The notes beneath the pieces are model-generated. The model had not been told where the DNA came from and searched no databases. It saw only the letters and a list, made by a program, of their open reading frames with translations. Shown here piece after piece: positions 6,616-62,115 of a stretch of DNA of 64,000 nucleotides. The position numbers and the translations under genes are program-made. Numbering within the stretch: position 1 is the first letter of the stretch; each line of letters opens with the position of its first letter. The stretch covers positions 124,001 through 188,000 of the forward strand of contig NZ_JADEXG010000001.1 in NCBI RefSeq assembly GCF_015207255.1, given 5' to 3'. Source of the stretch: Vasconcelosia minhoensis LEGE 07310 (GTDB taxonomy: Bacteria; Cyanobacteriota; Cyanobacteriia; Phormidesmidales; Phormidesmidaceae).

Positions 6616-6646
6616 GCCGGAGCTTTTTAGAGGGATATCCGGAGTA
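6616..6646 (-). promoter_or_regulatory. Direct-repeat operator (AraC-type candidate)
   Basis: Plus-strand GCCGGAGCTTTTT is followed 22 bp later by TCCGGAG. It sits between the AraC gene stop and the receptor gene it precedes. Eight similar sites are in the window. Direct repeats two helical turns apart are the usual target shape for AraC proteins. Confidence 0.55.
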
Positions 6647-6651
6647 TTGTG

Positions 6652-7677
6652 CTAAGCCCCCTTTGAGTTGTGTCGCCGCTGTCTGGCATACTCGCCGGGA
6701 TTGAGCCCAAATTTTTTGCGAAAAGCTACCGCGAAATGACTGCGATCGGCAAAGCCAATTTTGTGGGTCACATCAATGACTCTCTCGCCTGCAGCTAATA
6801 AATGCTGAGCTTTCTCCAGGCGGTAGTTGTGTAAATAGCCAAATACTGTGGTGCCAAATACCTGGCGAAACCCCTGCTTCAGCTTGTGATCATTGATGGC
6901 AACCTGTCGCGCTAGTTCTATCAAGGTAGGGGGCTGATCAAACTGGTTAATCAAAATGTTCCTGGCCTGGTGAATACGCTCGATGTCATCTGGTTTTAGT
7001 TCTGATTTCTGTGTAGACGTTTGCGCCTGTTCTGTAAACTGGCAAAACCGCAGAGTTAACAGCTCCAGGGCTTTGCTTTCCAGAAAAAGTCGCCGCATGA
7101 GCCCCTGATAGGGACAGTGCAAAATCTGGTGAACTACCGTCTGCATGGCAGCGGTCATGGCCCCTTGGTAGTAGTAGGGCTGAATACGTTCGCCCGTGGC
7201 AGCCCGCTGAATCTCCACAGGCAGCGCTGCTAACTGAGCGGGAGAAAAACTTTGAAGAAATTCAGCCGGGTCAAAGCAAACTTGAACTCGGGAAATTTGC
7301 TGGTCGGCGGCCCAGTCTTCCATCTCGGAAACGCCAGTGATGCCGCTTAAATAAGTGTACCCAGGAGACTCGTAAACGGTGTCGGTCAAACCATGCAGAT
7401 AAGTTCTGGCCGTTCCGGCAATAAAAAAACTCAGCACAGATTGAGCAACGTCATAATTCTGAGATTTTAACTTTAGAGAGTTGGTCAGGTGATGATCGTA
7501 GCCACATAACTCCAGGCTGTTTTGCAGCGGTAATGACCACTTATGAACAGCCCCAATTTTGGGGCAGTGACCTTTGCAACCCGTAATGACCCCGTCGGAA
7601 TAGCGGCTGATCGCACCGGTCTCCTGCCCTTCGTACCATAGTTCGTCCCAATCTTGCTCTGATAGTGTTAGAGGCAT
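6652..7677 (-). CDS. AraC-family regulator (PchR-like), module 1
   Basis: 341 residues. The C-terminal AraC double helix-turn-helix is clear: PPTLIELARQVAINDHKLKQGF (split by the usual spacing) and the second unit VIDVTHKIGFADRSHF followed by AFRKKFGLNP. The N-terminal 200 residues are the divergent effector domain shared by all AraC copies here. In the family, PchR binds a ferric siderophore and then activates receptor genes. It lies directly upstream of the broken receptor. Confidence 0.88.
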   Translation of the reverse strand: MPLTLSEQDWDELWYEGQETGAISRYSDGVITGCKGHCPKIGAVHKWSLPLQNSLELCGYDHHLTNSLKLKSQNYDVAQSVLSFFIAGTARTYLHGLTDTVYESPGYTYLSGITGVSEMEDWAADQQISRVQVCFDPAEFLQSFSPAQLAALPVEIQRAATGERIQPYYYQGAMTAAMQTVVHQILHCPYQGLMRRLFLESKALELLTLRFCQFTEQAQTSTQKSELKPDDIERIHQARNILINQFDQPPTLIELARQVAINDHKLKQGFRQVFGTTVFGYLHNYRLEKAQHLLAAGERVIDVTHKIGFADRSHFAVAFRKKFGLNPGEYARQRRHNSKGA

Positions 7678-7789
7678 TTGCGATCCACCTCACTGCACTG
7701 CACACAGTGTTTCTACAGTTGCGATTTATTATCATCTAACCTGGATTGCTTGTCAACAAGAAGACGATCGTGTTGCAACCCCTTGACCG

Positions 7790-7960
7790 CTAGAGTGACG
7801 GAGCCGGAGGAATCCGGGCAAGACGATGAGGACGAAGTTTGGCAGGTAGCTGATAGGCAGGCATCCTGCCGTCTTCACTGTCGAGATAGAGTTTACTAAC
7901 AGACAGCAGGTCGGCGGCGCAGGTAGTGGTGTTGAGGTCGGCGCATCAGGTCAAGCCTAG
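7790..7960 (-). pseudogene. Remnant of a DUF1636 gene of the 26.7-kb type
   Basis: The stretch matches the 3' half of the gene at 26726-27097 (the GGAGGAATCCGG start, then the segment on both sides of TCTTCACTGTCGAGATAGAG) but has lost its 5' part. The remaining 7678-8043 interval around it shows no other gene. Confidence 0.65.
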
Positions 7961-8043
7961 AGGCAAGTTACTGTTAGGGTTTACCCTGGTAGTAGCCTTG
8001 GGTTGGGCAATTGTCACCAGACTCGTGCAGATTTGCCAAGGAG

Positions 8044-8343
8044 CTAGACCATAAAGTACTTGTTTCTCAGTACCTGACTCCCCTCTAAGGTGAGCTGCGC
8101 ATTTTTACAGACCGCTAGCGGCGCGTCATCACCCGCAGCAGTTTCATCAGCGAGTCTGCCGTTCAGGTAGCCGTTCTCAATCACATATTGTAAGTGCTTC
8201 TGAACATCGGCTTTTTTTACGACCTTATCGTCAAAGTCGTCGGGATAGAAGCTAATATCCTGGGCCACTTCCTCAGTATGCTTTGCTTTGTTGAGCAGGT
8301 AGTAAATGATATCGTCGCGACGCTCATTGTCAGGGAAAGTCAT
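8044..8343 (-). CDS. Conserved hypothetical protein downstream of isiB
   Basis: 99 residues beginning MTFPDNERRDDIIYYLLNKA; the start was chosen because AGGAG lies 7 bp upstream, while the longer frame begins with TTG. The pattern of helices followed by VQKHLQYVIENGYLNG and LTLEGSQVL looks like a small winged-helix fold, which is my inference only. It has its own upstream region with a possible iron-responsive motif near 8441-8463, so it may respond to iron independently of isiB. Confidence 0.6.
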   Translation of the reverse strand: MTFPDNERRDDIIYYLLNKAKHTEEVAQDISFYPDDFDDKVVKKADVQKHLQYVIENGYLNGRLADETAAGDDAPLAVCKNAQLTLEGSQVLRNKYFMV

Positions 8344-8437
8344 GGTCAATCTCCTTTGTCTGTAAGTGGCTGGTATTCTTGAAAAACTCCCAAGGCAAAC
8401 GCTCTGAAAGCAGCCTCTCTTGAGAGCAATCTAATGA

Positions 8438-8465
8438 GACAGATTCTTATCAAGAGTATACTAGT
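8438..8465 (-). promoter_or_regulatory. Possible promoter/Fur motif for the 8044 gene
   Basis: On the minus strand TAGTATACTCTTGATAAGAAT contains a GATAAGAAT stretch like a Fur half-site and a TATACT-type -10. It lies about 100 bp upstream of the start. Weak evidence only. Confidence 0.3.
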
Positions 8466-10847: not shown

Positions 10848-12410
10848 TTACCCAATCCCGGCCCGTCCGATTTCCAGCAGAATAAAGCAGGCAAAGAGCA
10901 CGCCGCCGATGCCGCCGATTAGGAAACCCGAGGTAAACAGGCTCCAGTCGCTGTAGGTTTTCAGATTGGTCGGCAGATTGCCCCTGGGCTGTTCCTGCCT
11001 CTGAAACACCGCGCCGCCGTAGATAAACAGACACAGGCTCAAAATCACAACCAGGCCAGTGGCGCTGCCCAATCCGGCTAGGAGGGCCTGGTCGCTGTTG
11101 CGAAGCGGCCCCAGCTTGAGGAACGGCCCCAGCAGCAGATAGCCGTGGGCCATGCCAATTTCTAGCCCCCGTGTCACCGGCGAGAGACCGGCGCGATAGA
11201 TTGGCAGATTTTTGATCCAGGTGCGGCTGAGCGAGCTACTGTTCAGGGGAGTGGCCAGATTGCCCAGCTGCGGGTTGTTCTGCGCGGGCTGCACGATCCC
11301 TTCAAACAATGGCTCACGGTTGAACTGGGTATCGCCGTAGACGGCACCCGGATTGAACTTCATTTTGCTGAAGTCATAGCCCGCCGCGATCGCGCGCGAT
11401 CGCAGGCCGTGCCAGAAATGTCCTGCCAGCAGCAGGCTGGCCAAAACCACGTGGAACAGCATCAGCCAGGTGCGCGGCGTGATCACCCCGTCGGCGCTAG
11501 TCGTGCCTAAAGGTCCGTAAAACACTTCCGGGTACACCGTGCCATTCACCCAGACAAAGTAGGCTGCCAAAAAGCCCATATAGGCCAGCGCGGCCTGACT
11601 GTAAGCCAGATAGGCTTCGCCTGACCAGACAAACAGCCCCTTGGCCCAGCTCGTAGGCGCAGTGCGGATATGCCAGAGGCCGCCCAGAATGCAGATTGTG
11701 CCAATCCACAGGTGACCGCCGACCACATCTTCCAGGTTATTGACGGCGGCCATCCCCTGAAGCGTCCAACCCTCGGGGGTAAGGCCGACCAGGTAGCCAA
11801 AAATTCTCAGCGGGTTGAGAGTGGGCTGAGTAATCAGCCGCACATTGGCGACGGCGGGGTCATACAGGCCCCCGGCAAAGACCGCCTTAATCACTAGCAG
11901 CAGCGCTCCGACCCCCAGCAGCACCAGATGGATGCCGAGGATCGTGGTCATTTTACGACCGTCCTGCCAGTCGTAGCCGAAGCCTTTTTGATCCAGCTTG
12001 GCCGGTCCCAGCACTGCGTGGTAGATGCCCCCCGCGCCCAAAACCGCAGAGCTGACCAGGTGAACCACCCCGATGGCAAAGTAGGGATAGACATCCACCA
12101 CCTGACCATTGGCCCCGATGCCCAGACCCAACGTGGCCAGATGGGGCAGCAGAATCAGGCCCTGGTCATACATCGGCAGGCTGGGGTCAAAGCGCCACAG
12201 CTCAAACAGGGTCATCGCCCCGGCCCAGAAGACAATCAGCCCGGCGTGGGCGACATGAGCCCCCAGCAGCTTCCCAGACTGATCCACAAAGCGAAAGTTA
12301 CCGGCCCACCAGGAATAGGGGTTGAGCGAATCAGCCACGTAGTTCCTGGCTGCAGCGGTGTCGGTCGAAAAGCCAAGGGGCTTGAGCGGATTGGTTTGAG
12401 CTGTGGTCAT
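10848..12410 (-). CDS. CP43-like chlorophyll protein fused to a PsaL-like domain
   Basis: 520 residues. Residues 1-350 are an IsiA/Pcb six-helix chlorophyll antenna ([28 protein letters not shown]-type His motifs). From about residue 365 it matches the photosystem I subunit Psa[43 protein letters not shown] and a last helix before the end. PsaL forms the trimer contact of photosystem I, so this fusion could dock an antenna directly into the complex. Its start overlaps the upstream gene stop by ATGA. Confidence 0.93.
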
Positions 12411-13447
12411 GGTAGGCTTACCTCGCCGCGAGTGGATTCAGTCACTTTGCCTGCGGTAAAGCTGTAGCCCGCCGCCCGCAGAGCGTGGAACAGGTGCCCC
12501 TGTAAAAAGAAGAATCCCAGCCAGAAGTGGGCATTGGCCAGCCAAACCCGAGCCGTCAGGGCTCCGTCGGGGCTGACAAACACCGGAAAGCGATTAAACA
12601 CAAGGTTTAGCGTGGGCCCATAAAACTCGGGAGGATATACCACCGCGTTGACCGACACAAACAGCGTAGCGATAAAGGCCATTAGACTCACCGCGCCGAT
12701 ACTGTAGGACAGGTAGGCTTCGCCCGACCAGACAAACAGATTCTTTGTCCAGGGCAGGGGAGCGGTGCGAATGTGCCAGAGGCCGCCCAGTAGACACATT
12801 GCTCCAACCCAGATGTGGCCACCCACAACGTCTTCCAGGCGATCGACGCTGGCCAGCCAAAACTGGCCCTCGGTGCCCAACAGATAGCCGAAGATAGTGG
12901 CCGGGTTCAGGGTGGGGTTGGTAATCACCCGGACGTTTTGTACCACCGGATCATACAGCCCGCCGAAGGCCATCGCCTTGGCCACGAGCAGAAAGGCACC
13001 CAGCCCCAGCAGCACCAGATGAATGCCCAAAATCGTGGTCATTTTGTCGGTGTCGTCCCAGCGATAGCCGAAGAAAGGAAATTTATTCTCTAACTTCGCC
13101 GGTCCTCTAAGGGAGTGAAAAAGGCCGCCCGCTCCCAGAAAAGCAGAGCTAATCAGATGCAATGCCCCAATCACAAAGTAGGGATAGATATCCACAACCG
13201 CACCGCCTTCACCCACGCCAAACCCCAGACGGGCCAGGTTGGGCAGGACGATCAGCCCCTGTTCATACATCGGCAGGGTTGGGTCAAACTGGGCCACCTC
13301 AAACAGGGTAATGGCCCCGGCCCAGAACACAATCAGCCCAGCATGGGCGACATGAGCTCCCAAAAGCCGGTTGGAGAGGTGAATCAGACGAGCATTGCCC
13401 GCTCGTCGAGGAATTTGGGTATTGACATTGTCAACAGCAGCGATCAT
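12407..13447 (-). CDS. CP43-like (IsiA/Pcb family) chlorophyll protein
   Basis: 346 residues from ATG 13447, with GGAGAA upstream; a TTG start at 13483 is possible. It has the six transmembrane helices and the family's His ligands ([54 protein letters not shown]). It binds chlorophyll a as an antenna. It differs from IsiA proper in several loops. It is translationally coupled to the PsaL fusion downstream. Confidence 0.92.
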
Positions 13448-13531
13448 AGCGTAGTTCTCCGAATTGAGATTGAGAAAATTCAAATTGCAGATTGCGATCG
13501 CTCAGCGCTAGAGACAGCGATCAAACTAGCC

Positions 13532-24518: not shown

Positions 24519-24560
24519 TCACTCCCACAACACCGGATAGGACTGCACATCTAAATCGGA

Positions 24561-24580
24561 ATACTTCTCAAGAAGTTTAC
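24561..24580 (-). promoter_or_regulatory. Fur-box-like motif, module 2
   Basis: ATACTTCTCAAGAAGTTTAC lies 43 bp upstream of the receptor start and about 54 bp from the direct-repeat site. It is nearly identical to the site at 30716-30735. Confidence 0.6.
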
Positions 24581-24618
24581 CGGAAGCAGGTGAGCGATAG
24601 AAGCTGCTCTAGAACGGT

Positions 24619-24655
24619 GGCGGGAGCTTTTTTGAACGATCGCCGGAGGTTTTTG
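24619..24655 (-). promoter_or_regulatory. Direct-repeat operator, module 2
   Basis: GCGGGAGCTTTTTTG and GCCGGAGGTTTTTGG, GGA to GGA spacing of 22 bp. The remaining 24656-24882 holds only a GAGATTCCTCCCTCCGGTCG-type interspersed repeat (near 24778-24805) and no gene. Confidence 0.55.
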
Positions 24656-25580: not shown

Positions 25581-26591
25581 TTAGCTCGTCTGCCAAAAAT
25601 GCGGCTGACGCTTGCGGTAAGCACTGGGGTTTATGCCGAACTTTTTGCGAAAGGCGATCGCAAAGTGGCTGCGATTGGCATATCCCACGGCTTGAGCGGC
25701 ATTGGAGACTGACATCTCTCCGGCTTCGAGCAACTGGCGGGACTTTTCCATGCGGCAGTCATGCAAATAACCAAACACGGTAGTGCCAAACACCTGGCGA
25801 AACCCGGCTTTGAGCTTGCAATCGTTGATTCCTGCTAATCGAGCCAGCTCAATTAAGGTAGGCGGATCATTGAGTCGAGAAACCAAAATCTCTTTTGCGT
25901 AATGGATGCGCTCTACATCGTCCGGTTTTAGCGGCTTGGCGGTTTGGTGCGGTTCATCGGTATCTGGAAGTTGGGCGAGCTGGAGGGTCATCAATTCCCA
26001 AATTTTGCTCTCCAGATACATCCGCTGGGTAAAGCCTTGAAATGGACACTGCAAAATCTGTTGAATAACCTGCTGCATCGCTGAATGAGTCGTGCAGACC
26101 TGGGAGTAGTAAGTGCAATCGGATGGCTTGATGAGATGGCTGAGCGAATTTGGTAGTTCCCCAGAATAGCCCGTTATCCACTGCCCCAATAGCGTCGGGT
26201 CGATATGAATGCTGACCTCAAACTCACGACGATGGGCCGTCTTTTGATAAACTTCCCCTGGAGCCATACCGCTACCGCAAAAACCATGTTGTCCGGCCCT
26301 GATAGAGGTTAATTCTGATGCTGCTACCCCCGTCAAGACAAAGCACAGCTCTAACGGGTGCTCACGGTCTTCACTTGCGACTACTAAGTCTTCATGGGGG
26401 CGATAGTCGGCAATATCTAAAACAATGCCCTCCCGGATACGGACTGTCCGAAGATAGCCGCTGCCCAGTTCTTGGGGATAAGCCCAGGTTAAATCTAAAG
26501 GTTGCTGGGAATTCGGAACTGAGGTCACGCTTGCTTCGTATGAGCGCTCAATAATCTCCAGGTAATCTTCTTGAGAGAAGGTAATCGCCAT
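25581..26591 (-). CDS. AraC-family regulator (PchR-like), module 2
   Basis: 336 residues, with the C-terminal double HTH (LIELARLAGINDCKLKAGF, then VSNAAQAVGYANRSHF and AFRKKFGINPSAY). The N-terminal effector domain has the common start FSQEDYLEIIERSYE. It probably senses a ferric siderophore and activates the receptor of this module. The toxin-antitoxin pair separates it from that receptor. Confidence 0.9.
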   Translation of the reverse strand: MAITFSQEDYLEIIERSYEASVTSVPNSQQPLDLTWAYPQELGSGYLRTVRIREGIVLDIADYRPHEDLVVASEDREHPLELCFVLTGVAASELTSIRAGQHGFCGSGMAPGEVYQKTAHRREFEVSIHIDPTLLGQWITGYSGELPNSLSHLIKPSDCTYYSQVCTTHSAMQQVIQQILQCPFQGFTQRMYLESKIWELMTLQLAQLPDTDEPHQTAKPLKPDDVERIHYAKEILVSRLNDPPTLIELARLAGINDCKLKAGFRQVFGTTVFGYLHDCRMEKSRQLLEAGEMSVSNAAQAVGYANRSHFAIAFRKKFGINPSAYRKRQPHFWQTS

Positions 26592-30658: not shown

Positions 30659-30670
30659 CACACCACAGTA

Positions 30671-30735
30671 TAGATTTCTCAAGAATGTCGATCCTGAACT
30701 TGGGACAGTTAGGAACACTTCTCAAGAAGATTACT
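30671..30735 (-). promoter_or_regulatory. Two Fur-box-like motifs, module 3
   Basis: TAGATTTCTCAAGAATGTCG at 30671-30690 and ACACTTCTCAAGAAGATTAC at 30716-30735. Two copies suggest strong iron control of this receptor. Confidence 0.6.
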
Positions 30736-30773
30736 GGATAGAGGGTTCATGGCAATAGGGCTGGCGATCCGCA

Positions 30774-30808
30774 GCCGGAGTTTTTGCGATCGCACCCCGG
30801 AGTTTCGC
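30774..30808 (-). promoter_or_regulatory. Direct-repeat operator, module 3
   Basis: GCCGGAGTTTTTGCG then CCCCGGAGTTTCG, 22-bp spacing; a HIP1 octamer lies between the half-sites. Confidence 0.55.
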
Positions 30809-31633: not shown

Positions 31634-32590
31634 TCACGCTCGCCGCTGCCGCATAAACATTCCCGGATTCACCCCATACCGGCGGCGAAAGGCGGCGGCG
31701 AAGTGACCCCGATTGGCAAAACCTACGGCATGAGCGGCGGCTGTGACGTTCATTTCACCCCTCTCTAGCAGCTGATGCGATCGCGCCATTCGCAGCTCAT
31801 GCAGATAGCCAAAGACGGTCGTGTCGAACACCTGGCGAAAGCCCACTTTTAGCTTGTGGTCGTTGATGCCAACGGCGCGGGCCAACTCCATCAGCGAGGG
31901 GGGATTTAACAAGCGCTGCCGCAGAATTTTGCTGGCATAGTGGATGCGTTCAACGTCATCGGGTTTTAGCCGATGAGCGCTGGTTTGGGGAGGCTGTGAA
32001 GGACGAACTGCCTCGATCAGTAAGGCCATCAGTTCCCAGACTTTGCTTTCTAAGTACAGCCGCTGAGTCATTCCCTGAAATGGACAGGTGAGGATTTGCT
32101 GCACGGTCATCTGCATGGCTGCCGTGGGGGTACCGCTGTGCTCGTAATATTTTTCATCGGGCGATCGCATAAACGGCTTCAGGCCAACGGGTAGCTGCTC
32201 AGAAAGGCCCAGCCACTGCCGAAACACCACCGGTTCGATATGGACATTGACGCTAACGATCCGGGTGTTTCCTGGTACAAACCAGGGCTCTCCGGGGGCC
32301 AGGCCACTGCCGCAGAGGCTGTAGCGCTGCTGGGTTTTTCCAGCTGGGTAGAACTGGTCGAAGGTGTATTCGAGCGGATGAACGCGATCGCGGTGAGTCA
32401 TTACCAGATCGTCTTTTAGGCAGCTATCAGAAACCGCCAGTTCCAGTCCCGGACGCAGCTCATTGGAATAACGATAGCCCTGCCCCAGCTGAGACGGATA
32501 GGATTCGCGCAGGCCAAGGCGGTCGCCTGGATCGGGCTGGACAGCCTGAAACAAATCCCAATAGTCAGCGTGAGCAAGGGTAAGCGTCAT
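31634..32590 (-). CDS. AraC-family regulator (PchR-like), module 3
   Basis: 318 residues from MTLTLAHADYWDLFQA; the longer frame (to 32665) lacks family support. C-terminal AraC HTH: LMELARAVGINDHKLKVGF, then VTAAAHAVGFANRGHF and AFRRRYGVNP. Its effector domain is shared with the other copies. The Fur-like motif at 32664-32683 lies 75 bp upstream. Confidence 0.9.
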   Translation of the reverse strand: MTLTLAHADYWDLFQAVQPDPGDRLGLRESYPSQLGQGYRYSNELRPGLELAVSDSCLKDDLVMTHRDRVHPLEYTFDQFYPAGKTQQRYSLCGSGLAPGEPWFVPGNTRIVSVNVHIEPVVFRQWLGLSEQLPVGLKPFMRSPDEKYYEHSGTPTAAMQMTVQQILTCPFQGMTQRLYLESKVWELMALLIEAVRPSQPPQTSAHRLKPDDVERIHYASKILRQRLLNPPSLMELARAVGINDHKLKVGFRQVFDTTVFGYLHELRMARSHQLLERGEMNVTAAAHAVGFANRGHFAAAFRRRYGVNPGMFMRQRRA

Positions 32591-32663
32591 AGTTAAGTCA
32601 GGTCGCAGCTGCCTTTGAAATAGAGCTTGCAATGAGAGCTTCAGCCAGCTTACTATAGATGAC

Positions 32664-32683
32664 ACTTTTTCTCAATTAGTTTC
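32664..32683 (-). promoter_or_regulatory. Fur-box-like motif upstream of the AraC gene
   Basis: CTTTTTCTCAATTAGTTTCT, same TTCTCAA core as other sites. Confidence 0.4.
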
Positions 32684-42081: not shown

Positions 42082-42130
42082 GGGTTTCTCTCCACACACC
42101 TTTTGAGATGACTCGCAACTAGCCGCTGCT

Positions 42131-42150
42131 AAGAACTATTCTCATGAAGA
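42131..42150 (-). promoter_or_regulatory. Fur-box-like motif, module 4
   Basis: AAGAACTATTCTCATGAAGA, 50 bp upstream of the receptor start; 56 bp to the direct repeat. Confidence 0.5.
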
Positions 42151-42192
42151 TATCCGGAAACGGGGCGGTATAAACGGGCGCGATCGCTCCCA

Positions 42193-42226
42193 TGCGGATC
42201 GTTTTGCGCCCTAGCGGGATTTTTAG
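42193..42226 (-). promoter_or_regulatory. Direct-repeat operator, module 4
   Basis: TGCGGATCGTTTT then GCGGGATTTTTAGG, GGA spacing 21 bp. Confidence 0.5.
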
Positions 42227-43032: not shown

Positions 43033-44028
43033 CTAGCCAGACTGCCGACCTAAAAGATAGGCTTTTGGGTTAACGCCAAACCGCTTGCGGAAGGCCACCG
43101 CAAACCGACTTTGATTGGCATAGCCCACCGACTGGGCCACCTCTTTAACGTTCAAACGGCGGCTGTTGAGCAACTCTCGCGCGGTTTCCATGCGGTGGCG
43201 GTGCAGATAGCCAAATACCGTAGTCCCAAACACTGCCTTAAACCCGACCTTGAGCTTGTAGTCATTCAGGCTCACCTGCCGCGCTAGCTCCATCAGCGAG
43301 GGCGGGTTCTCAGGGTTTTCTTCAAGAATTTTTTGGGCGGCGTAGATGCGATCAACATCATCAGGGTTGAGGGACACTGGCGTTTTTACAGGAAGCTCAG
43401 ACTCTTTTAGCTGCGCTAGCTTGAGAGCAATCAGCTCTAGGCACTTGCTTTCTAAATAGATTTGTTTGGTTTTGCCCTGAAACGGGCAGTACAGAATTTG
43501 CTCCAAGGCCGACCGCATGGCGGGGGTGATGGCATTGATTTCGCTAAACCAGCCGCCTTCCCTGGCTTCAATACAGGGTCTAATCCCTTCGGGTAACTCA
43601 TCTAGAGCATCGGTAACTAGCCGGGTAAGCCCATCCACAGAGTCCAGGTGCAGGTCAACCTTCAGCACCGGATCGTTGGCGTAGGTGATCCATAGACAGT
43701 CATCCGGTTCGTTACAGGTACCCCATTCGATAAAATTGTCGCCTGTGCACTTGCCGCTACGGTTCCCCGATAGATTAAACCCCAACTCACTGCTTGTAAA
43801 TCTTCCAGGTTGGGATGTTGCGGCTACGCATAGGTCATCATGCAGCTGATAGTTGAACAGACAAAGATTAATTTCTCGAAGTTGAATTTGGTGAATATAG
43901 CCCCGACCTAACCGCTGAGGAACCACCTGCTGAAGCTCGCCATAGCCCTGAGCATTTAATGACAGAGGCAGGGGATTGGTCGTTTGCCAAAGCTCGTCGT
44001 AGTCGGTGCGAGAAAGCGTGATAGCCAT
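43033..44028 (-). CDS. AraC-family regulator (PchR-like), module 4
   Basis: 331 residues. HTH: LMELARQVSLNDYKLKVGF, then VKEVAQSVGYANQSRF and AFRKRFGVNPKAY. Effector domain start MAITLSRTDYDELWQ. A palindrome TGAGATCTATTCTCA lies 40-60 bp upstream. Confidence 0.9.
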   Translation of the reverse strand: MAITLSRTDYDELWQTTNPLPLSLNAQGYGELQQVVPQRLGRGYIHQIQLREINLCLFNYQLHDDLCVAATSQPGRFTSSELGFNLSGNRSGKCTGDNFIEWGTCNEPDDCLWITYANDPVLKVDLHLDSVDGLTRLVTDALDELPEGIRPCIEAREGGWFSEINAITPAMRSALEQILYCPFQGKTKQIYLESKCLELIALKLAQLKESELPVKTPVSLNPDDVDRIYAAQKILEENPENPPSLMELARQVSLNDYKLKVGFKAVFGTTVFGYLHRHRMETARELLNSRRLNVKEVAQSVGYANQSRFAVAFRKRFGVNPKAYLLGRQSG

Positions 44029-44088: not shown

Positions 44089-44197
44089 CGGCTTTACGTC
44101 AAGGCTCTCATTAAGCCAGCCCAGCGGCAGAACCTGCCCTGAGTCAGCGAGAAAAGCGAGAGCTGGGGTCAGCCATGAGGGTAGCGCGATCGCTCCC

Positions 44198-44232
44198 ATC
44201 CGGATCGCTTTGCGCCCTACGCGGATTTTTTG
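44198..44232 (-). promoter_or_regulatory. Orphan direct-repeat operator
   Basis: TCCGGATCGCTTT then CGCGGATTTTTTG, 21 bp apart. It is a duplicate of the module-4 operator with flanking sequence, but the gene after it is a Uma2 gene copy; the receptor that should follow is gone. Confidence 0.5.
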
Positions 44233-48928: not shown

Positions 48929-48971
48929 TAATATCGTGGCTAGTGCAGGTTTGAAATGCGATCGCGTCTTC

Positions 48972-49010
48972 CAGCGGGACTTCTTATGTCTCTTGGCGGG
49001 ACTTTTTGAG
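48972..49010 (-). promoter_or_regulatory. Direct-repeat operator, module 5
   Basis: AGCGGGACTTCTT then GGCGGGACTTTTTG, 22-bp spacing. The half-sites are nearly identical. Confidence 0.6.
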
Positions 49011-49119: not shown

Positions 49120-50148
49120 TCATCCATCAAAATTTCCTTGATGCAGCACATTCCTCGTTCGCGTTTGGCTCGGTGCCATCTTGAATTTTTTCTTAAATGC
49201 CGCTACAAAAGAGCTACGACTGGCATAGCCAACGTATTGGGCCACCTCCTGCACGCTGAGATCCCCTGCCAGTAAAAGCTGCTGCGCCTGCTCCATTCGA
49301 TAGCGGTGCAGATAGCCAAACACAGTGGTTCCAAATACCTGACGAAACCCCTGCTTCAGCTTTCGATCATTAATTTGTACCTGTCGAGCCAACTCCAATA
49401 ACGAAGGTGGACGAGCAATATTTCGCAGCAAGATATCTCGGGCCTGATAGATTCGATCGACATCCTGGCGCGGTAATTCTGGGGTGAAGGTAGCTTGAGG
49501 AGTTGTCAGCAACGCTTCGATTTGAAAAGCCATTAGTTCTAGCACCTTGCTCTCCAGATAAAACTGTCGAGTGATGCCCCGATAAGGGCACTGAAATATC
49601 TGTCGAATCACCCGCTGCATTGTCGGCGGCGTCATTCTGCTCAGATGCAGTCGAACGAACTTGGGCGCTTCGACCACGGATTGCAAATCTGAAGGTGGCT
49701 CAGCTACGCGGCTATGGCTTAACTGTAGAAATACCTCTGGAGCCATACGGATAATGAGCTGATGAAGGCGCTGATGAGCTGGATATTCTTCGGTTTCTGC
49801 CGTCCCTGGTAAGCAATAAAGGTAATGTCTGCCCGCCATTTCTTCTTTAACATCTCCTAATCCTGTATTGCAGACTCGACACTTTCCTGCCAAATAAAAG
49901 TTAGCGGTCAGCGGCATGTTTTGAGCGTGCTGCTGAATTTCGTGGATCTGATTCTGGCGTTTGGTCACATCAGAAAGAACAAGCTGTAGCCCCGGACGTA
50001 GCTCAATTTCATGCCAATACCCGTGCCCTAACGGTGGCGGCAGCTCAAAGAAGCGCTCCGAGGCATCGGCATAGTCAGCGACCGGATTGCGATCGCGGTA
50101 GCTCTGCAAAATCTCTTGAACCTGATGCCCTGTTAACGTTTTAGTCAT
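49120..50148 (-). CDS. AraC-family regulator (PchR-like), module 5
   Basis: 342 residues. C-terminal HTH: LLELARQVQINDRKLKQGF, then VQEVAQYVGYASRSSF and AFKKKFKMAP. Its N-terminal effector domain differs most from the others (a CRVCNTGLG Cys pair near residue 90). It lies directly before the module-5 receptor without cargo. Confidence 0.9.
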   Translation of the reverse strand: MTKTLTGHQVQEILQSYRDRNPVADYADASERFFELPPPLGHGYWHEIELRPGLQLVLSDVTKRQNQIHEIQQHAQNMPLTANFYLAGKCRVCNTGLGDVKEEMAGRHYLYCLPGTAETEEYPAHQRLHQLIIRMAPEVFLQLSHSRVAEPPSDLQSVVEAPKFVRLHLSRMTPPTMQRVIRQIFQCPYRGITRQFYLESKVLELMAFQIEALLTTPQATFTPELPRQDVDRIYQARDILLRNIARPPSLLELARQVQINDRKLKQGFRQVFGTTVFGYLHRYRMEQAQQLLLAGDLSVQEVAQYVGYASRSSFVAAFKKKFKMAPSQTRTRNVLHQGNFDG

Positions 50149-52280: not shown

Positions 52281-52345
52281 GTAATTACAGTCCCGCAGTA
52301 GCCCCAAGCCAGTAGCTTAGCGAGAATAGAGACTCTGAAGGAGTC

Positions 52346-53335
52346 CTAACCGGAGTTTTTTGGCTCACTGCCGGAAGGATTCAATATGTATTGCTCCACA
52401 TCGTCCAATATCCAGTCGGCTGCCAGGGGGCTATTGCCTGCACCCCAGTAGTGCCCCACCCGATACACCCGATTCTGCTGCACCGCTTGTAAGGTCTGCC
52501 AGAGCGGGTCAGAGCGAAGCTCCTCCAATTCGGCAGCCGCAGCGGCGGCAATCTCTGGAGTAGCTCCAAAGGTGGACATAAAAATAATATCGCCGTCAGC
52601 CTGGGGCAGCGCTTCACGGCTGATCAGCTTGACAAAAGGGGGCTGGTCGGGAGCTCCTTCATTTTGCGAAGGCGGGCGAGCAAGTCCCAGATCTGACAGA
52701 ATAGAGCCGCCGAAGCAGTTTTTCAAATACAGCCCAATCTGGCCGGATTGAGCCAGTACTCGCACCAGAGACACCTGGATCTGCTGCCGCTCTTCACCCA
52801 GGCGAGCCTTCAAGTCCTCTATCCGCTGCTGATACTCCGCTAAAACCGCCGCTGCTTCCGCCTCCATCCCTAGAACTTCACCATGAAAGCGAAAAGGGCG
52901 CTGCCAGTCGGCGGTAGTCTGCATGTCAAATACTACGGTAGGGGCAATGACGGTCAGTTTGTCGTAGATGGTTTCGGCATCCCAGACACTAACGATGATT
53001 AAATCGGGCTGGAGAGCAGCAACGGCTTCTAAATTGATCTGCTCACTCTGTCCCAGCCGCTGGGCTTCAGGCACCCGATCTGAAATTTGCTGCAGCAAAT
53101 TGTTGGGCACGCCGACCGGCCTGACCCCCAAAGAAAGCAAATCACCAACGGAGGTATGGTCAAGCGCAACAATCCGGGCTGGCCGAGCCGGAACACAGGT
53201 TTCTCCCATGGGATGCGGCACCACCCGGCAGTCTGCTAGGGAACCAGGCACCGTCGAGGCCGGCTGACAGGCCATAATTCCCAGTGCCACAGCGGCAGCT
53301 AGCAGCCAGTACCCGTTCAAGCGTAACTTGATCAC
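52346..53335 (-). CDS. Fe-siderophore substrate-binding lipoprotein, module 6
   Basis: 329 residues. Lipobox ALGIMAC, PHPMGETCVPARPARIVAL, LQPDLIIVSVW. The C-terminal extension (SGSEPKNSG) is encoded by operator DNA, which is odd. It lies 61 bp after the receptor gene. Confidence 0.9.
   Translation of the reverse strand: MIKLRLNGYWLLAAAVALGIMACQPASTVPGSLADCRVVPHPMGETCVPARPARIVALDHTSVGDLLSLGVRPVGVPNNLLQQISDRVPEAQRLGQSEQINLEAVAALQPDLIIVSVWDAETIYDKLTVIAPTVVFDMQTTADWQRPFRFHGEVLGMEAEAAAVLAEYQQRIEDLKARLGEERQQIQVSLVRVLAQSGQIGLYLKNCFGGSILSDLGLARPPSQNEGAPDQPPFVKLISREALPQADGDIIFMSTFGATPEIAAAAAAELEELRSDPLWQTLQAVQQNRVYRVGHYWGAGNSPLAADWILDDVEQYILNPSGSEPKNSG
52350..52383 (-). promoter_or_regulatory. Direct-repeat operator upstream of the ABC gene
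   Basis: ACCGGAGTTTTTTGG then GCCGGAAGGATTC, 21 bp apart. It overlaps the 3' codons of the binding-protein gene (ending at 52346) and precedes the ABC start by about 70 bp. GAGAATAGAGACTCT at 52322-52336 may be a Fur-like site. Confidence 0.55.
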
Positions 53336-55982: not shown

Positions 55983-56042
55983 AACCCTACACACCAAGAG
56001 AAAGAGCGAGATTGGCATATCCGTTACCGCCCAGGTAAGAAT

Positions 56043-56058
56043 CTTTCTCAAGAGAATA
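56043..56058 (-). promoter_or_regulatory. Fur-box-like palindrome, module 6
   Basis: TTCTCAAGAGAA palindrome, 60 bp upstream of the receptor start, 53 bp from the direct repeat. Confidence 0.55.
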
Positions 56059-56097
56059 CAGAACTTTGGGGTGCCGCTAAAGTCAAAAATGTGCCTC

Positions 56098-56132
56098 AGC
56101 CGGAATAAGATGTGCCCGTAGCGGAATGAATG
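56098..56132 (-). promoter_or_regulatory. Direct-repeat operator, module 6
   Basis: GCCGGAATAAGATG then AGCGGAATGAATG, 21 bp apart. T-rich part is lost here. It lies just after the AraC stop. Confidence 0.5.
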
Positions 56133-56143: not shown

Positions 56144-57139
56144 CTACCCGTGATCCCTAATCAGTTCCCGAGGGTTTACCCCAAACCGCTGGCGAAAGGC
56201 GGCGGTGAAGTGGCTTCGACTCAGATAGCCGACAGCATGGGCCGCCTGCTGCACGTTCAGCTCTCGCTCTAGCAGTAAGAGACGAGCCTGTTCTAGCCGC
56301 TGGGCCTGGAGGCAGCCAAAGACGGTAGTCTTAAATACCTGTCGAAATCCTCGCTTTAAGGTGCAGTCGTTGAGGCCGACCTGCCGGGCCAGCCCAATTA
56401 GGGAGGGAGGATTAACTAAGTCTTGCAGCAGGATCGCCTTTGCTTGCTGAATTCGCTCAACGTCATCGGGTCTCAAACGGTGAGCAGATACTGTTTTTTG
56501 GGGTAGGTCTGCGTCCAAAGTCAGCGCCACCAGCTCCATCACTTTCGCTTCTAGAAACAGCCGTCGAATTGGGCCTGAGTAGGGACATTGGAGCAGCTGC
56601 TGCAAAATCACCTTCAGGACAGGGGAGGTAGTGCGGCAGCAGCTCAAATAGGTCTGATCGGGTGCTTTTAGCAGGTCTCCAATTTCCGGCAGGTGAACTG
56701 TGGCGGTCTGCCCCATCAGAGTCTGAAGCACATCTGGCTCAAGATGCAGACTCAGGGATAGATGACGGGGGTGGGGTTCATACAGCATCTGTTTGGCCGG
56801 GGCCAACCCACTGCTGTAGAGCCAGTACTGACCGGCGGTATTGGCCCGTCCCCCCATATCGTCGCCGATGTCAAAATGGAGTTCGACTGGGTGAGCGCGA
56901 TCGCAACAGTCCATCACGACGGGAGTCCGATGCTCGAGGTCACTGATTTCAATATCCAACCCTGGTCGGAGCTGAATCTCACGATAGTAACCCCGACCAA
57001 ACTGCTCCGGATAGGCCCAGATTTGCTCAAATTCTCCTAAATCTGTCTGCTGACTTTGCGAGTCAATATTTTGCAAGTCGATATTAGAGGGGTGTTTAAC
57101 TAAAGACCAAAAATCTTCTTGGGAAATAATCGGGGGCAT
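56144..57139 (-). CDS. AraC-family regulator (PchR-like), module 6
   Basis: 331 residues. HTH: LIGLARQVGLNDCTLKRGF, then VQQAAHAVGYLSRSHF and AFRQRFGVNP. It is divergent from the plus-strand receptor at 57549, so it could serve modules 6 and 7. TCTTCTCATTATTTTTCC (57190) may be its Fur-like site. Confidence 0.9.
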   Translation of the reverse strand: MPPIISQEDFWSLVKHPSNIDLQNIDSQSQQTDLGEFEQIWAYPEQFGRGYYREIQLRPGLDIEISDLEHRTPVVMDCCDRAHPVELHFDIGDDMGGRANTAGQYWLYSSGLAPAKQMLYEPHPRHLSLSLHLEPDVLQTLMGQTATVHLPEIGDLLKAPDQTYLSCCRTTSPVLKVILQQLLQCPYSGPIRRLFLEAKVMELVALTLDADLPQKTVSAHRLRPDDVERIQQAKAILLQDLVNPPSLIGLARQVGLNDCTLKRGFRQVFKTTVFGCLQAQRLEQARLLLLERELNVQQAAHAVGYLSRSHFTAAFRQRFGVNPRELIRDHG

Positions 57140-57309
57140 GATGGCAATCGTAGTCCTCGACAGTCAACATTGAAGTAAACTAGTAGGAAGTCTTCTCATT
57201 ATTTTTCCACGAGACATTTCCTATAGATAGGCAAGGCTGGCATTCGTGGACCGTCACCAATTCTTTGGTGGGTCATCAATATGGCCAGAAATACGGACGC
57301 AGGTTCTAC

Positions 57310-57338
57310 TTGACAGGTTTTCTCAATAGCTATAGTAT
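57310..57338 (+). promoter_or_regulatory. Promoter with Fur-like site, module 7
   Basis: TTGACA at 57310-57315 and TAGTAT at 57333-57338, spacer 17. A TTTTCTCAATAGC motif sits inside the spacer, a place where a repressor would block RNA polymerase. The leader to the GTG start is about 200 bp. No GGA direct repeat was found. Confidence 0.5.
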
Positions 57339-57548
57339 CTTATCTTAATGCCAATAGCTTTTAATAGCGAACGGCCAGAACGATCTGTAGGAGTGTAGTT
57401 CGTTCTAGCTTTTGGCGGGTGCGTTCTGTTTGACGGCTTAAATTCGTTAGTGCATATATCCTCCTGTTTTGGGCTCTCAGGCCCTTTCTGGAGGGAAGTT
57501 TTGCCTGTCAACATTTTCGGTATGACAAAACAGTGTGAGGAATATCGC

Positions 57549-60158
57549 GTGATAATTAAACAAGATTTGGTCAATTTTGCCCTTCTAGGTGGACTGGTAG
57601 GTGGACTGACCATGGCCTGTATTCAACCCGCTTGGGCCGAGGGAGCTCAGATTACGGGAATTCGCCTGAATCCCTATGAAGGCGGACTTTCATTGATTTT
57701 AGAGACGGATAGCCCCGCGCTTGACAATATTTTTCAGGCTAGCGCTGGAAATGCCTTAATTTTTGACCTTACTGCGACTCAGTTGCAGCTGCCAGAGGGC
57801 GGTGACTTTCGTCAAGTAAACCCGGCGGAGGGCATTGCTGAAGTCACCGTCACCCCCCTCGATCCGCACAGCGTCCGGGTGCGGGTCGTCGGTACGGTAG
57901 CCGCTCCCGATAGCCAAATCGAGCAGACGCCTCAGGGAATCGTGCTGAACCTGACTCCCCAGGCCGTGGCTACTCAGCCTGAGCAAGAGATTCCCAGCGA
58001 AGATGAAGCGATTGTCGATTCGGTGCCGCCTGCACCCATGGAGAATACTGGCGAATTAGAAGAGCCAGCCGAGGACGGGGTCGCCGCTCCAGCGCCGTTG
58101 CGAATTGTGGTAACCGCAACCCGTAGTGAAGCAGAAGAATCCGACGTCACGCGATCGCTGACGGTGATCACCCGCGAACAGATCGAACAGCAGTCAGCAG
58201 TCACCCGCAACCTGGGAGATATTCTAGGACAGCTTGTCCCCGGTCTGGCACCGGGTAACCAGAGTCTGAGCGAATTTGGTCAGTCTCTGCGGGGGCGAAA
58301 TCCGCTGGTGCTGATCGACGGCGTGCCTCAGTCCACGAATCGAAACGCCTTTCGCAACATTCGGATTATTGATCCCAGCGTGGTCGAGCGGATAGAAGTT
58401 CTACGGGGACCGACCGCTCTCTATGGAGATGGGGCCACTGGTGGCATTATCAACATCATTACCCGACCGGGCGGGGAGGGAGAACCGGAGTTCAGTACTA
58501 GTGCTGGGCTGAATGGGTCTCTGAGTGAAGTTGACGCCGACAGTCTGGGGGGAATTCTTCAGGTCGGTGTCGCGGGTCGAGAAGGCGAGTTCGACTATCG
58601 CTTCAGCGGCTCCTTCGAGCGGATTGGGAGTCTATTTGACGCGGAGGGCGATCGGATTCCGCCAGATCAGCTGAGCACCCAGGGCAGCCTGGCGGATACC
58701 AATACTCTGAATCTGTTTGGCAAGCTGGGCTGGGAATCGGAGGATCACCGGCTTCAATTTACGATTAACCACTTCAATACTCGCCAGGACACCGACTTCA
58801 TCACCGACCCCAGCGTCAACCAATTTCCGCCGGGAGACCAGAAAGCGCGGGCACGGGCCGGACTGGAACTCGACGATCAGTCTGCCATTCGCAATACGTT
58901 TCTAAATCTGGACTACAGCCATCCCAGTCTGTTCTGGAACAGTCGCGTCCATGCTCAGCTTTACTATCGGGACTACCTGACGCGATTTTTTCCCTTTGAC
59001 GGAGAACGATTTGGCCGCGTGACGCCCGAAGGCTTCAGAATTTTTCAGTCCCGGGTCGAGTCAGAAGAACTCGGCGCTCGGATAGAATTAGAAACGCCCT
59101 TGGTCGAAGACCAGCTGACGCTGCTGACTGGGCTAGACTATGCCGATGAGGACTCGGTTCAGCCGGTAACCATTTTTGATAATCAGGCCTTCGACGCGAG
59201 TGACGGCCTGGTATTTAACCCAATTGGCGACCGCCCCTGGGTGCCGCCCCTGAATCAGAGAAACCTGGGCCTATTTGCTCAGCTCCAGTGGCAGCCGCTC
59301 GAAAAGCTGCTAGTACGTGGCGGCGTCCGGCACGAGCGGATTGGCGTCAACGTTGACACGTTTACGACCCTCGATGGCAATACGATTCCGGGCGGAGAGC
59401 TGAACTACGATGCGACCCTGTTTAACCTCGGGCTGGCCTACAATCTCACCGACCAGCTGGACGTTTTTGCTGACTTTGCCCAGGGCTTTTCAATTGCCGA
59501 TGTTGGCCTGGTGCTGCGCGGTGCACCGGCCGGGTTTTCGGTCGAAACGCTCGATCCAGAAGCCCAGCAGGTGGACAGCTATGAGCTCGGTTTGCGAGGC
59601 AGCTGGGACAGCGTACAGGCTTCGCTGGCCGGGTTTTACAACGAGTCGAACTTAGGCACGACCTTTGACCGAGAAACCCTGGAGATTGTGCGTGCCCCTG
59701 AGCGGGTGTATGGGGTTGAGGCTGCCGTCGATGCGCAGCTCTCAGAGGTCTGGCAGATTGGCTCTACCCTCAGCTTCGTCGAAGGCGACAACGACGTGGA
59801 CGATGACGGCGAGTTCCGACCGCTGACGGGCTTTCGCATTCCTCCGATTAAGTGGACCGCCTATGTTGAGAATGAAACCCTGCCCGGCTGGCGCAATCGG
59901 CTACAGCTGCTCTATTCTGGCGGTCGCGATCGCGCTTTTAACGAAGGCGTGGACTTCAGAGACGTAGACGATTATGTCGTGCTAGACCTGATCAGCAGCG
60001 TTGCCCTGGGCGATGGCACCCTCCAATTAGGGATTCAGAATCTGCTGAATAATCAATACTTCACCGCGCCCTCCCAGCTGCTGCGGCTGCGCACTAACGA
60101 CTCCTTTACTGCTGCCTCGGGCAGAACCTTTTTCCTGCGCTACGGAATTGACTTTTAA
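57549..60158 (+). CDS. TonB-dependent siderophore receptor, module 7
   Basis: 869 residues from GTG 57549, chosen because TGAGGAA lies upstream and the signal peptide (LVNFALLGGLVGGLTMACIQ) starts there; longer frames from 57450 or 57522 are possible. AMIN domain (ITGIRLNPYEGGLSLILET), LRIVVTATRSEAEESD, plug LVLIDGVPQSTN and VERIEVLRGPTALYG, barrel to LRYGIDF. It is the only receptor on the plus strand and is tail to tail with its binding protein. Confidence 0.93.
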   Translation: MIIKQDLVNFALLGGLVGGLTMACIQPAWAEGAQITGIRLNPYEGGLSLILETDSPALDNIFQASAGNALIFDLTATQLQLPEGGDFRQVNPAEGIAEVTVTPLDPHSVRVRVVGTVAAPDSQIEQTPQGIVLNLTPQAVATQPEQEIPSEDEAIVDSVPPAPMENTGELEEPAEDGVAAPAPLRIVVTATRSEAEESDVTRSLTVITREQIEQQSAVTRNLGDILGQLVPGLAPGNQSLSEFGQSLRGRNPLVLIDGVPQSTNRNAFRNIRIIDPSVVERIEVLRGPTALYGDGATGGIINIITRPGGEGEPEFSTSAGLNGSLSEVDADSLGGILQVGVAGREGEFDYRFSGSFERIGSLFDAEGDRIPPDQLSTQGSLADTNTLNLFGKLGWESEDHRLQFTINHFNTRQDTDFITDPSVNQFPPGDQKARARAGLELDDQSAIRNTFLNLDYSHPSLFWNSRVHAQLYYRDYLTRFFPFDGERFGRVTPEGFRIFQSRVESEELGARIELETPLVEDQLTLLTGLDYADEDSVQPVTIFDNQAFDASDGLVFNPIGDRPWVPPLNQRNLGLFAQLQWQPLEKLLVRGGVRHERIGVNVDTFTTLDGNTIPGGELNYDATLFNLGLAYNLTDQLDVFADFAQGFSIADVGLVLRGAPAGFSVETLDPEAQQVDSYELGLRGSWDSVQASLAGFYNESNLGTTFDRETLEIVRAPERVYGVEAAVDAQLSEVWQIGSTLSFVEGDNDVDDDGEFRPLTGFRIPPIKWTAYVENETLPGWRNRLQLLYSGGRDRAFNEGVDFRDVDDYVVLDLISSVALGDGTLQLGIQNLLNNQYFTAPSQLLRLRTNDSFTAASGRTFFLRYGIDF

Positions 60159-61153: not shown

Positions 61154-61265
61154 TGCGGCTCCTGTAATTCGGCTTATAGGGCTATCCAGATTACAGCCTG
61201 GCTCCCATATAGCGGCTATTACAGATATATTGCCACGATTATTGTCAGGAAGAGCGTCTAACCTG

Positions 61266-61303
61266 TCAGATACGGGCCATCAGATACGGGCCATCAGATA
61301 CGG
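61266..61303. repeat. 14-bp tandem repeat
   Basis: TCAGATACGGGCCA twice plus TCAGATACGG. The interval 61154-61774 has no gene; besides this it holds the repeat below. Confidence 0.75.
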
Positions 61304-61637
61304 AAAGAGCACAATAAACCTGGTAGCCCTGCGACTTTAACTCAACTTTATCTGCCAAGAAGCAGAGCAAAGTAAGCCAGTAAATCAGCCCGAGTGTTGA
61401 ATAGGACCTAAGGGACTTAATCATGCCCCCCTCAGCGGTAGGGGTTTGAAAAGTTTGCAACTGCCAAAGCTGTTATCTGACCAGGGCTAGCGCATCTGAG
61501 AAAGCTAGAAGGCAATTCTCTGATGTACGCCCCCTGAAGGTCGGCACATTGATGGGATCTTGTCCTGTATCCCACTGGTGCGGTCAACCGCTAGCACCTA
61601 AGTACGTGGACCTAATTAAACTCCTGATGACCAGCTT

Positions 61638-61730
61638 TGCCCTCATCCCCCTGCCCCTTCTCCCCGGGTGAGAAGGGGAGCCGGACTCAAAGCCCCTCGC
61701 CCCGTGGGAGAGGGGTTTGGGGTGAGGGTG
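61638..61730. repeat. GC-rich palindromic interspersed repeat
   Basis: Two inverted stems (CCCCTTCTCCCCGGGTGAG with its partner, and CCCCTCGCCCCGTGGGAG). Same family as the inside of the MITE at 4073-4233 but inverted, and here without the GGGTGCATCCCA ends. Confidence 0.75.
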
Positions 61731-61774
61731 AGGCCAAAGCATAGCAGGTCTTACAAATAATTGGGCTAGCCTAC

Positions 61775-62005
61775 TTAAAGCGCCAAAATCGCCATCCAAG
61801 CAATGGCGGTTTTGGCGATGACGGCATAGTCCATTTCAAAGCTAAAGTTCACGCTTTCGCTAAAATCCCCAACAGGGCACCGGATGAAATAGCGAAAAAT
61901 TTGAGGATTTAGAAGCAGCATCACGGCCAGCCACAGCACCCGGCCGCCCTGGGGTTTGAGATAGGTGGCTAACACCTGGCGATAGGACTGGCTAGGGCGA
62001 CTCAT
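61775..62005 (-). pseudogene. N-terminal fragment of an ABC transporter gene
   Basis: SQSYRQVLATYLKPQGGRV matches the start of the 50511-52280 protein; a short internal deletion follows, then the homology ends at FRYFI and an unrelated tail takes over. It kept its own operator (62084). It marks another lost module. Confidence 0.75.
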
Positions 62006-62083
62006 GCCGGAGGTTCCTGGGGAATCGTTCCTGGGGAATCAGCCAACAGCTTAGCGAGAACAAGACCAGAGCGGGCCTCCTAA

Positions 62084-62115
62084 CCGGAGCTTTTTGGCTC
62101 CTAGCCGGAAGAATT
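62084..62115 (-). promoter_or_regulatory. Direct-repeat operator before the ABC fragment
   Basis: ACCGGAGCTTTTTGG then GCCGGAAGAATTG, 21 bp apart; it matches the site at 52350. Confidence 0.55.

Follow-up and report, generated by a model that had tools for sequence, protein, structure and literature searches.

How can paralogous AraC-type regulators that are encoded in one genome each find their own promoter? This question is raised by a 64-kb stretch of the genome (5.26 Mb) of the cyanobacterium Vasconcelosia minhoensis LEGE 07310 (contig NZ_JADEXG010000001.1, positions 124,001 to 188,000; part of our contig C43), the whole of which is referred to here as the window. Its minus strand carries a row of modules made up of genes for an AraC regulator, a TonB-dependent receptor (AMIN, plug and barrel) and a FecB-type binding protein, with an operator between the regulator and the receptor; in places, Uma2 genes and one ABC transporter are part of the row. 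A double helix-turn-helix (HTH) located at the C-terminus, HTH_18, is matched above the Pfam cut-off by each of the six AraC genes in the window and by one on contig C36 of the same genome. The sequence comparisons described below make it very probable that each site linked to a receptor gene serves as operator for the AraC protein encoded just upstream, that it is read by means of a barcode, and that a Fur-like box adds iron repression.

The original prediction had proposed nine direct repeats in the window with half-sites 21 or 22 bp apart, and a check of the sequence located all nine, with these spacings, at the predicted positions (Table 1). They are also the nine best non-overlapping matches, on both strands of the window, to a weight matrix for which 122 operators from other genomes, and none from this one, served as the training set. 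Eight of them score 28.6 to 21.1 bits, the weak site at 56092-56132 scores 12.3 bits, and the next match elsewhere in the window scores 10.8 bits; with the full matrix (own sites included), 20 windows simulated by a first-order Markov model contained five matches of at least 12.9 bits. All nine sites are on the minus strand, as are the genes. Some details had to be revised. The half-site, described as a 7-mer, is longer, and in the sense of the genes consists of an A-tract, a base N, TCCSS and about nine further bases. The sites were said to precede a receptor or an ABC transporter gene, and this is what we find at the receptor and ABC sites, including the one at 62084, which precedes an ABC-transporter remnant (61655-62005), and the one at 6616, whose receptor open reading frame (ORF) is short and contains AMIN and plug only. 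The site at 44198, which was thought to precede a Uma2 gene, in fact lies 3' of Uma2 gene 44262-45038(-) and 164 bp 5' of AraC gene 43033-44028. Its surroundings, with AraC remnants at 45103-45356, resemble a decayed duplicate of an AraC-Uma2-operator unit: the protein of this Uma2 gene is 70% identical to that of Uma2 gene 42294-42983, and the operator DNA at 44198 is 89% identical to that at 42193. The operator at 44192-44232 is therefore probably a relic of a duplicated unit.

Nor does every module have an operator. The whole genome contains 12 plug matches, and an operator is located upstream of nine of them; the three others are the receptor gene 57450-60158(+), with a best operator score of -11.2 bits, a receptor gene on contig C51 (5.4 bits, below the threshold of 14 bits), and the plug fragment 17791-18201. 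Outside the window, operators precede three receptor genes or pieces, two on C36 and one on C47 (an incomplete receptor); these are perfect AAAAAGATCCGGCTGGGAA repeats at 21 bp, located on C36 about 110 bp before the start of the ORF. Pattern searches of the genome were less telling: the loose pattern SSGGAN{16,17}SGGAN was discarded as uninformative (560 matches on both strands, with a higher number in the control), and a stricter one gave 51 matches versus 55 in the reversed control, including eight window sites and the three receptor sites of C36 and C47; of its other 40 matches, only two (C150 and C36:11558) were looked at, in passing.

The operator is widespread in cyanobacterial AraC-receptor loci. 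We assembled 161 loci, i.e., 77 loci of named genomes, 80 stretches from 21 of 38 searched genomes of relatives, the window, and three loci from the own genome. They were picked by AraC homology, and the operator frequencies are therefore valid for AraC-linked receptors only; the starts of the receptor genes are longest-ORF starts. All 77 named loci come from records titled as cyanobacteria except one, an AraC-receptor locus (L095) in a record titled Candidatus Gracilibacteria that is possibly mis-binned. Without any matrix, exact 7-mer direct repeats were found in the 165 non-redundant receptor promoters 74 times at 21 bp and 34 times at 22 bp, and 0 to 14 times at each of the remaining distances between 8 and 60 (distance 14 is forced to zero by a filter that removes period-7 repeats); upstream of 590 other genes, the counts were 52 at 21, 19 at 22, and 0 to 46 at other distances. 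The half-site of an iteratively derived matrix consists of an A-tract, N, TCCG and then weaker bases. At 14 bits, this matrix detects the operator in 123 of the 165 receptor promoters, in none of 495 block-shuffled sequences and in none of the 165 reverse strands. The motif is not equally common before unrelated genes, since only 24 of the 590 other genes of the same loci have it, eight of which belong to one ABC-transporter family; the remaining 16 were judged by their first residues only. The spacing is 21 bp in 81 and 22 bp in 42 of the 123 operators. When spacings were scored singly, 62 promoters matched at 20 bp and 27 at 23 bp, which we attribute to slippage along the A-tract, and 0 to 19 matched at spacings of 15-19 and 24-30 bp. 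A full-length AraC gene is present on the same strand within 3 kb upstream of 116 of the 123 operator-bearing receptor genes. The choice between 21 and 22 bp is hardly reflected in the AraC proteins, the best column (Q300) giving only 0.32 bits. Among the 42 promoters without operator, nine have a 7-mer repeat at 21 bp, and no clear new motif was seen.

Within this conserved frame, one base differs between operators but not between the two copies of one operator. In copy 1 of the 123 operators, the base preceding TCC (base -1) is A in 34, G in 31, C in 25 and T in 33 cases, and, being nearly uniform, contains almost no information over the family. However, it is identical in both copies in 110 of the 123 operators, where 25% would be expected (z 16). 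The copies also agree above expectation at +7 to +12 (z 5.6 to 11.3), +4 (z 5.9) and +5 (z 4.3), and the TCC positions are plainly conserved.

The barcode covaries with the adjacent regulator. The mutual information for base -1 peaks at AraC residue 258 (1.26 bits above shuffles; numbering of the regulator 25581-26591, Met = 1), followed by residues 259 and 262; for +7 to +12, the best residues are 309, 311 or 312. In an AlphaFold2 model (numbering shifted by one), these residues are located in helices 257-268 and 307-318, which we take to be the two recognition helices of the AraC-type domain; the fold matches AraC-type DNA-binding domains, e.g., 3mn2 (TM 0.81). When the set was thinned to 43 regulators with less than 40% N-domain identity, residues 258, 259 and 262 were the best three of 322 columns for base -1 (in the 36 cases whose operators have matched copies), and each of +8, +9, +10, +11 and +12 had its best column in helix 307-318; that for +7 was column 162. 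To tabulate the relation, the first set of loci and a test set (see below) were pooled, with one row per distinct N-domain, resulting in 137 rows with matched copies. Base -1 is T in 38/38 rows with C-T at residues 258-259, G in 31/31 with R-K, A in 23/23 with Y-K, C in 4/4 with N-K, A in 7/8 with F-K and C in 6/7 with C-K; H-K is treated below, and rarer combinations (seven kinds) make up nine rows. In the first set, residue 311 goes with base +12 (A311 with T, 45/51; S311 or V311 with A, 26/28; G311 with G, 6/6) and residue 309 with base +9 (R309 with G, 9/9; S309 with A, 8/8). All six regulator-operator pairs of the window obey the code, five of which were part of the training set and one (57139) was not. 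These sequence relations support the view that the operator bases are predicted by the recognition-helix residues of the adjacent AraC, and with it the original proposal of an AraC operator with a spaced direct repeat and one AraC gene per receptor, to which they add a barcode for each module.

The rules were frozen before they were applied to phylum-wide genomes, a test set of 66 receptor promoters of which 49 had an operator, 44 were paired with a regulator, and 41 had matched copies. For these 41 pairs, the base -1 rule was right in 37, wrong in none and made no call in four (all N258, all C). Ten of the 44 test regulators are at least 90% N-domain identical to training regulators; when these are excluded, 28 right calls and four no-calls remain of 32, and for regulators below 60% identity, 23 right calls and four no-calls of 27. 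For 13 genomes that have three or more modules each, the adjacent AraC predicts base -1 in 67 of 78 cases, whereas the other AraCs of the same genome do so in 136 of 508, which is chance level. Among pairs with less than 35% N-domain identity, those that agree at residues 258, 259 and 262 also share the base in 227 of 261 cases, and those with different residues in 610 of 4067. Likewise, prediction by residues 258 and 259 from systems below 35% identity was right in 73 of 96 cases (eight more had no analogue), compared with eight for a majority guess. The N-domain tree requires at least 27 changes of base -1, and in a test on independent pairs T259 and T go together in 9 of 10 (p 0.004). The other tree tests gave 4/4 for R258 with G, about 5/9 for Y258 with A, about 2/5 for H258 or N258 with C, about 5/8 for A311 with T at +12, and about 3.5/7 for R309 or S309 with a purine at +9; hardly any pair goes in the opposite direction. 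Seven named cyanobacterial plasmid loci were also inspected. A clear operator is present in four, each of which agrees with the code (Picosynechococcus PCC 7002 pAQ7, NIES-970, Acaryochloris 'Moss Beach' and Gloeocapsa PCC 7428), the first two sharing their genus with one of the training loci (L086). In two loci from Leptolyngbya, the first helix is different and the receptor gene is not preceded by an operator; the site in Gloeocapsopsis dulcis is poor and overlaps the AraC gene.

Several observations weigh against the proposed operator and its barcode, or restrict their reach. At 14 bits, the operator is absent from 42 of 165 promoters in the first set and from 17 of 66 in the test set, a few of which fall narrowly below the threshold. 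The columns best linked to +3, +4 and +5 fall outside the recognition helices. Regulators with H-K pair with C in 13 of 17 rows and with A in 4 of 17, and the C36 regulator of the own genome, with H-K and A, breaks the rule. Over all 145 matched pairs, the base -1 rule is right in 132, wrong in nine and makes no call in four, and the frozen +12 rule is right in only 24 of 36 cases, with eight no-calls and four errors. Only one of six tree-based residue-base tests, the T259/T test, reaches p<0.05. Moreover, base -1 can be predicted in 87 of 104 cases simply from the nearest relative, as judged by the N-domain; thus, descent and residues are correlated, and shared descent accounts for part of the residue-base association. 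Finally, in an over-dispersion test, the diversity of barcodes within a genome did not exceed that expected by chance, and one IutR protein of Synechocystis is reported to bind several receptor promoters in vitro (PMC11221513, accessible part). The barcode may therefore confer preference rather than full insulation.

The last two points bear on an explanation that we consider unlikely, though it deserves to be taken seriously, namely that the barcode has no insulating role, residue and base co-drifting through compensatory changes and most modules being activated by most of the AraCs. The in vitro cross-binding, described for IutR1 and IutR2 in the accessible part of PMC11221513, the lack of over-dispersion and the mixed operators at ABC genes (see below) are in line with it. 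On the other hand, it fits poorly with the near-deterministic residue-base relation and the matched copies at receptor genes, and with the fact that an identical 7-base barcode occurs in only 1 of 319 within-genome pairs, although chance would give only about two. It is rather improbable, in our opinion, that the adjacent AraC reads the operator but acts mainly as a repressor or as an iron sensor without siderophore ligand. According to the accessible parts of the sources, Synechocystis, which has IutR, secretes no siderophores such as pyochelin, iron sensing by IutR is left open (PMC11221513), and PchR represses in the absence of pyochelin (PMC8477383); however, IutR is reported as an activator (PMC11221513), and one regulator per receptor with matched barcodes would suit a substrate-specific signal more than a common iron signal. 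That the repeats merely descend from a single ancestral promoter by duplication, or are a mobile repeat, and are not read by any regulator, is very hard to sustain: the modules are paralogous, some segments are duplicated DNA (e.g., the 42186 and 44192 operators) and nearest relatives predict well, but the pairs below 35% identity and the within-genome swap of AraCs lead us to reject it, and copies that stay matched through the base changes on the tree and helix columns that remain on top among the 43 thinned regulators argue against it as well.

The proposed barcode-read operator is combined with a second element. Downstream of the operator, 93 of the 123 promoters agree at 10 or more of 14 positions with TTGAGAAnnnTTCTCAA, presumably the consensus of a Fur-like box, compared with 8 of 123 mononucleotide shuffles, and the box most often starts 53-54 bp after the second TCC. 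The idea that the direct repeat itself is a Fur site was rejected, because the Fur-like box is a separate element. The base composition of the promoters gave no fixed places for -35 and -10 positions. The divergent pair of AraC gene 56144-57139 and receptor gene 57450-60158(+) has, besides the lack of an operator match, Fur-like pieces in the intergenic region 57139-57450. PchR promoters combine Fur repression with activation by the siderophore-loaded AraC protein (PMC8477383, accessible part), and by analogy a two-input Fur/AraC logic is likely at the receptor promoters described here.

A different arrangement is found at the ABC transporter. Among 19 non-redundant upstream regions of orthologues of the window ABC transporter gene, eight contain an operator, and in all eight base -1 is mixed between the copies (six T/C, one A/C and one T/A), compared with 13 of 123 receptor operators (Fisher p 1e-7, the orthologues being non-independent). 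Such a mixed operator could be that of a shared transporter, usable by two kinds of AraC. The three IutRs of Synechocystis showed no mutual interaction in a yeast two-hybrid assay (PMC11221513, accessible part). That a natural, near-deterministic recognition code exists in this AraC subfamily, together with hybrid operators at a shared ABC transporter readable by two paralogues, is conceivable, and we put it forward tentatively. If so, two helix residues would name one base and the second helix would bias more, and the operator of any cyanobacterial paralogue would thus be predictable from the protein. Operators are also located upstream of genes for large proteins starting like MVQVSLSTSTTFDGELNALVEDQG (L185, L187, L188, L189, L232 and L234; genomes G027 and G004).

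How could such a site function? We envisage a pair of AraC subunits in head-to-tail orientation, bound to the same face of the DNA at a distance of two helical turns (21-22 bp). The first HTH would read N-TCCG, near-invariant residues holding TCC and residues 258, 259 and 262 selecting N, and the second HTH, about one turn closer to the gene, would read +8 to +12 via residues 308-312. Since N and the bases downstream of it agree within an operator but differ between modules, paralogous regulators with a common core motif could each prefer their own promoters, insulation perhaps being partial. The downstream Fur-like box would add iron repression, so that receptor synthesis would take place under iron scarcity with an active cognate AraC, its ferri-siderophore being the probable activator.

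AraC proteins constitute one of the largest families of bacterial regulators, and Btr of Bacillus and YbtA of Yersinia are AraC-type activators of siderophore uptake; the PchR-box of Pseudomonas aeruginosa PchR was reportedly described by Michel in 2005. To our knowledge, no predictive base code exists for AraC proteins, and a full-text literature search found no residue-base code for them, although most subscription papers lie outside such a search and absence is no proof. The NCBIfam model of Btr gave a weak HTH match in six of seven members (40.5 bits, cut-off 900), and all listed NCBIfam matches were far under their cut-offs. PchR resembles the regulators studied here in being an AraC regulator of a siderophore receptor that is combined with Fur, and its effector is the ferri-siderophore (PMC8477383, accessible part). 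Relatives in Burkholderia and Azospirillum share the NxxKL..GFR..FG pattern of the HTH, and at 12 bits or more the operator matrix found no match in five AraC loci of Burkholderia, Azospirillum, Shinella, Bartonella and Pseudoalteromonas. IutR1-3 of Synechocystis PCC 6803 are likewise encoded upstream of TonB-dependent receptor genes, bind receptor promoters in electrophoretic mobility shift assays and are required for induction at low iron. They differ in being reported as global activators, with three HOMER motifs in a figure, and the accessible part of that paper names no direct-repeat operator, 21/22-bp spacing or residue-base code (PMC11221513). Our type of inference is that of Prot-DNA-Korr, in which the link of residues in recognition helices to bases of the binding sites was assessed by mutual information for the MerR, Rex and NrtR families, in a text whose accessible part does not contain 'AraC' (PMC5045206); unlike in that work, as far as accessible, a frozen rule was tried here on new pairs and within-genome swaps. 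Thus, the AraC-receptor logic was already known from PchR and IutR, and the recognition code is new here.

Table 1. Operators, Fur-like boxes and AraC regulator genes in the window. Base -1 is given for the two operator copies; bits, score against the operator matrix trained without the own genome, unless stated otherwise.
Feature	Coordinates	Strand	Details
Operator	6609..6650	-	spacing 22; base -1 C/C; before short receptor ORF 5535-6320; 25.0 bits
Operator	24613..24654	-	spacing 22; base -1 C/C; before receptor 21855-24518; 24.9 bits
Operator	30767..30808	-	spacing 22; base -1 C/C; before receptor 28142-30718; 27.8 bits
Operator	42186..42226	-	spacing 21; base -1 A/A; before receptor 39478-42099; 26.7 bits
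Operator	44192..44232	-	spacing 21; base -1 A/A; upstream of AraC 43033-44028; 26.4 bits
Operator	48967..49008	-	spacing 22; base -1 G/G; before receptor 46328-48883; 28.6 bits
Mixed operator	52342..52382	-	spacing 21; base -1 T/C; before ABC transporter 50511-52307; 21.1 bits
Operator, weak	56092..56132	-	spacing 21; base -1 T/T; before receptor 53397-56051; 12.3 bits (13.0 with full matrix)
Mixed operator	62076..62116	-	spacing 21; base -1 T/C; before ABC remnant 61655-62005; 26.7 bits
Fur-like box TTGAGAAAGGTTCTCGA	6552..6568	-	before short receptor ORF; 13/14 matches; 53 bp after second TCC
Fur-like box	24555..24571	-	before receptor 21855-24518; from sequence
Fur-like box TTGAGAAGTGTTCCTAA	30709..30725	-	before receptor 28142-30718; 12/14 matches; 54 bp after second TCC
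Fur-like box	42129..42145	-	before receptor 39478-42099; from sequence
Fur-like box TTGAGAACGATTCTCAA	48910..48926	-	14/14 matches; 53 bp after second TCC
Fur-like box	56035..56051	-	before receptor 53397-56051; from sequence
AraC regulator	6652..7677	-	residues 258-259 H-K, predicts C; paired with C; Pfam HTH_18, alignment
AraC regulator	25581..26591	-	C-K, predicts C; paired with C; source of residue numbering (Met = 1)
AraC regulator	31634..32665	-	H-K, predicts C; paired with C
AraC regulator	43033..44028	-	Y-K, predicts A; paired with A
AraC regulator	49120..50148	-	R-K, predicts G; paired with G
AraC regulator	56144..57139	-	C-T, predicts T; paired with T

Some further observations were made in the window and at the other loci. 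Another weak AraC N-terminal piece is located at 37225-37575. A single protein, that of ORF 10848-12410, matches PsaL as well as the CP43-type photosystem II antenna (Pfam PSII); PSII is also matched by ORF 15007-16032, and ORFs 12407-13483 and 13532-14599 show DNA similarity to ORF 10848-12410; isiA/pcb-like low-iron antenna genes are thus present within the receptor island. A longer AraC subfamily (about 370-390 residues; L167, L168 and L170, on contigs C5 of genome G007 and C95 of G015) matches the model in its C-terminal part only; at L167, L168 and L170, several receptor promoters are without the standard operator, some having a single TGCG half-site. On a plasmid of Azospirillum lipoferum (L328, 5486-5726), a TCCGGGTGAG direct repeat at 16 bp is located between the AraC and siderophore receptor genes. 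On a plasmid of Hymenobacter volaticus (L331), operator-like matches at 466(-) (19.8 bits) and 5494(+) (17.1 bits) lie beside an AraC gene with F258-K259, and this type of operator may thus reach Bacteroidota.

In summary, an operator is proposed here for the regulators of cyanobacterial receptors, by which receptors can be matched to regulators. The 145 natural regulator-operator pairs have matched copies, one core and many barcodes, which makes the question of how duplicated regulators stay apart a testable one. They also suggest orthogonal regulator-promoter pairs for cyanobacterial synthetic biology.

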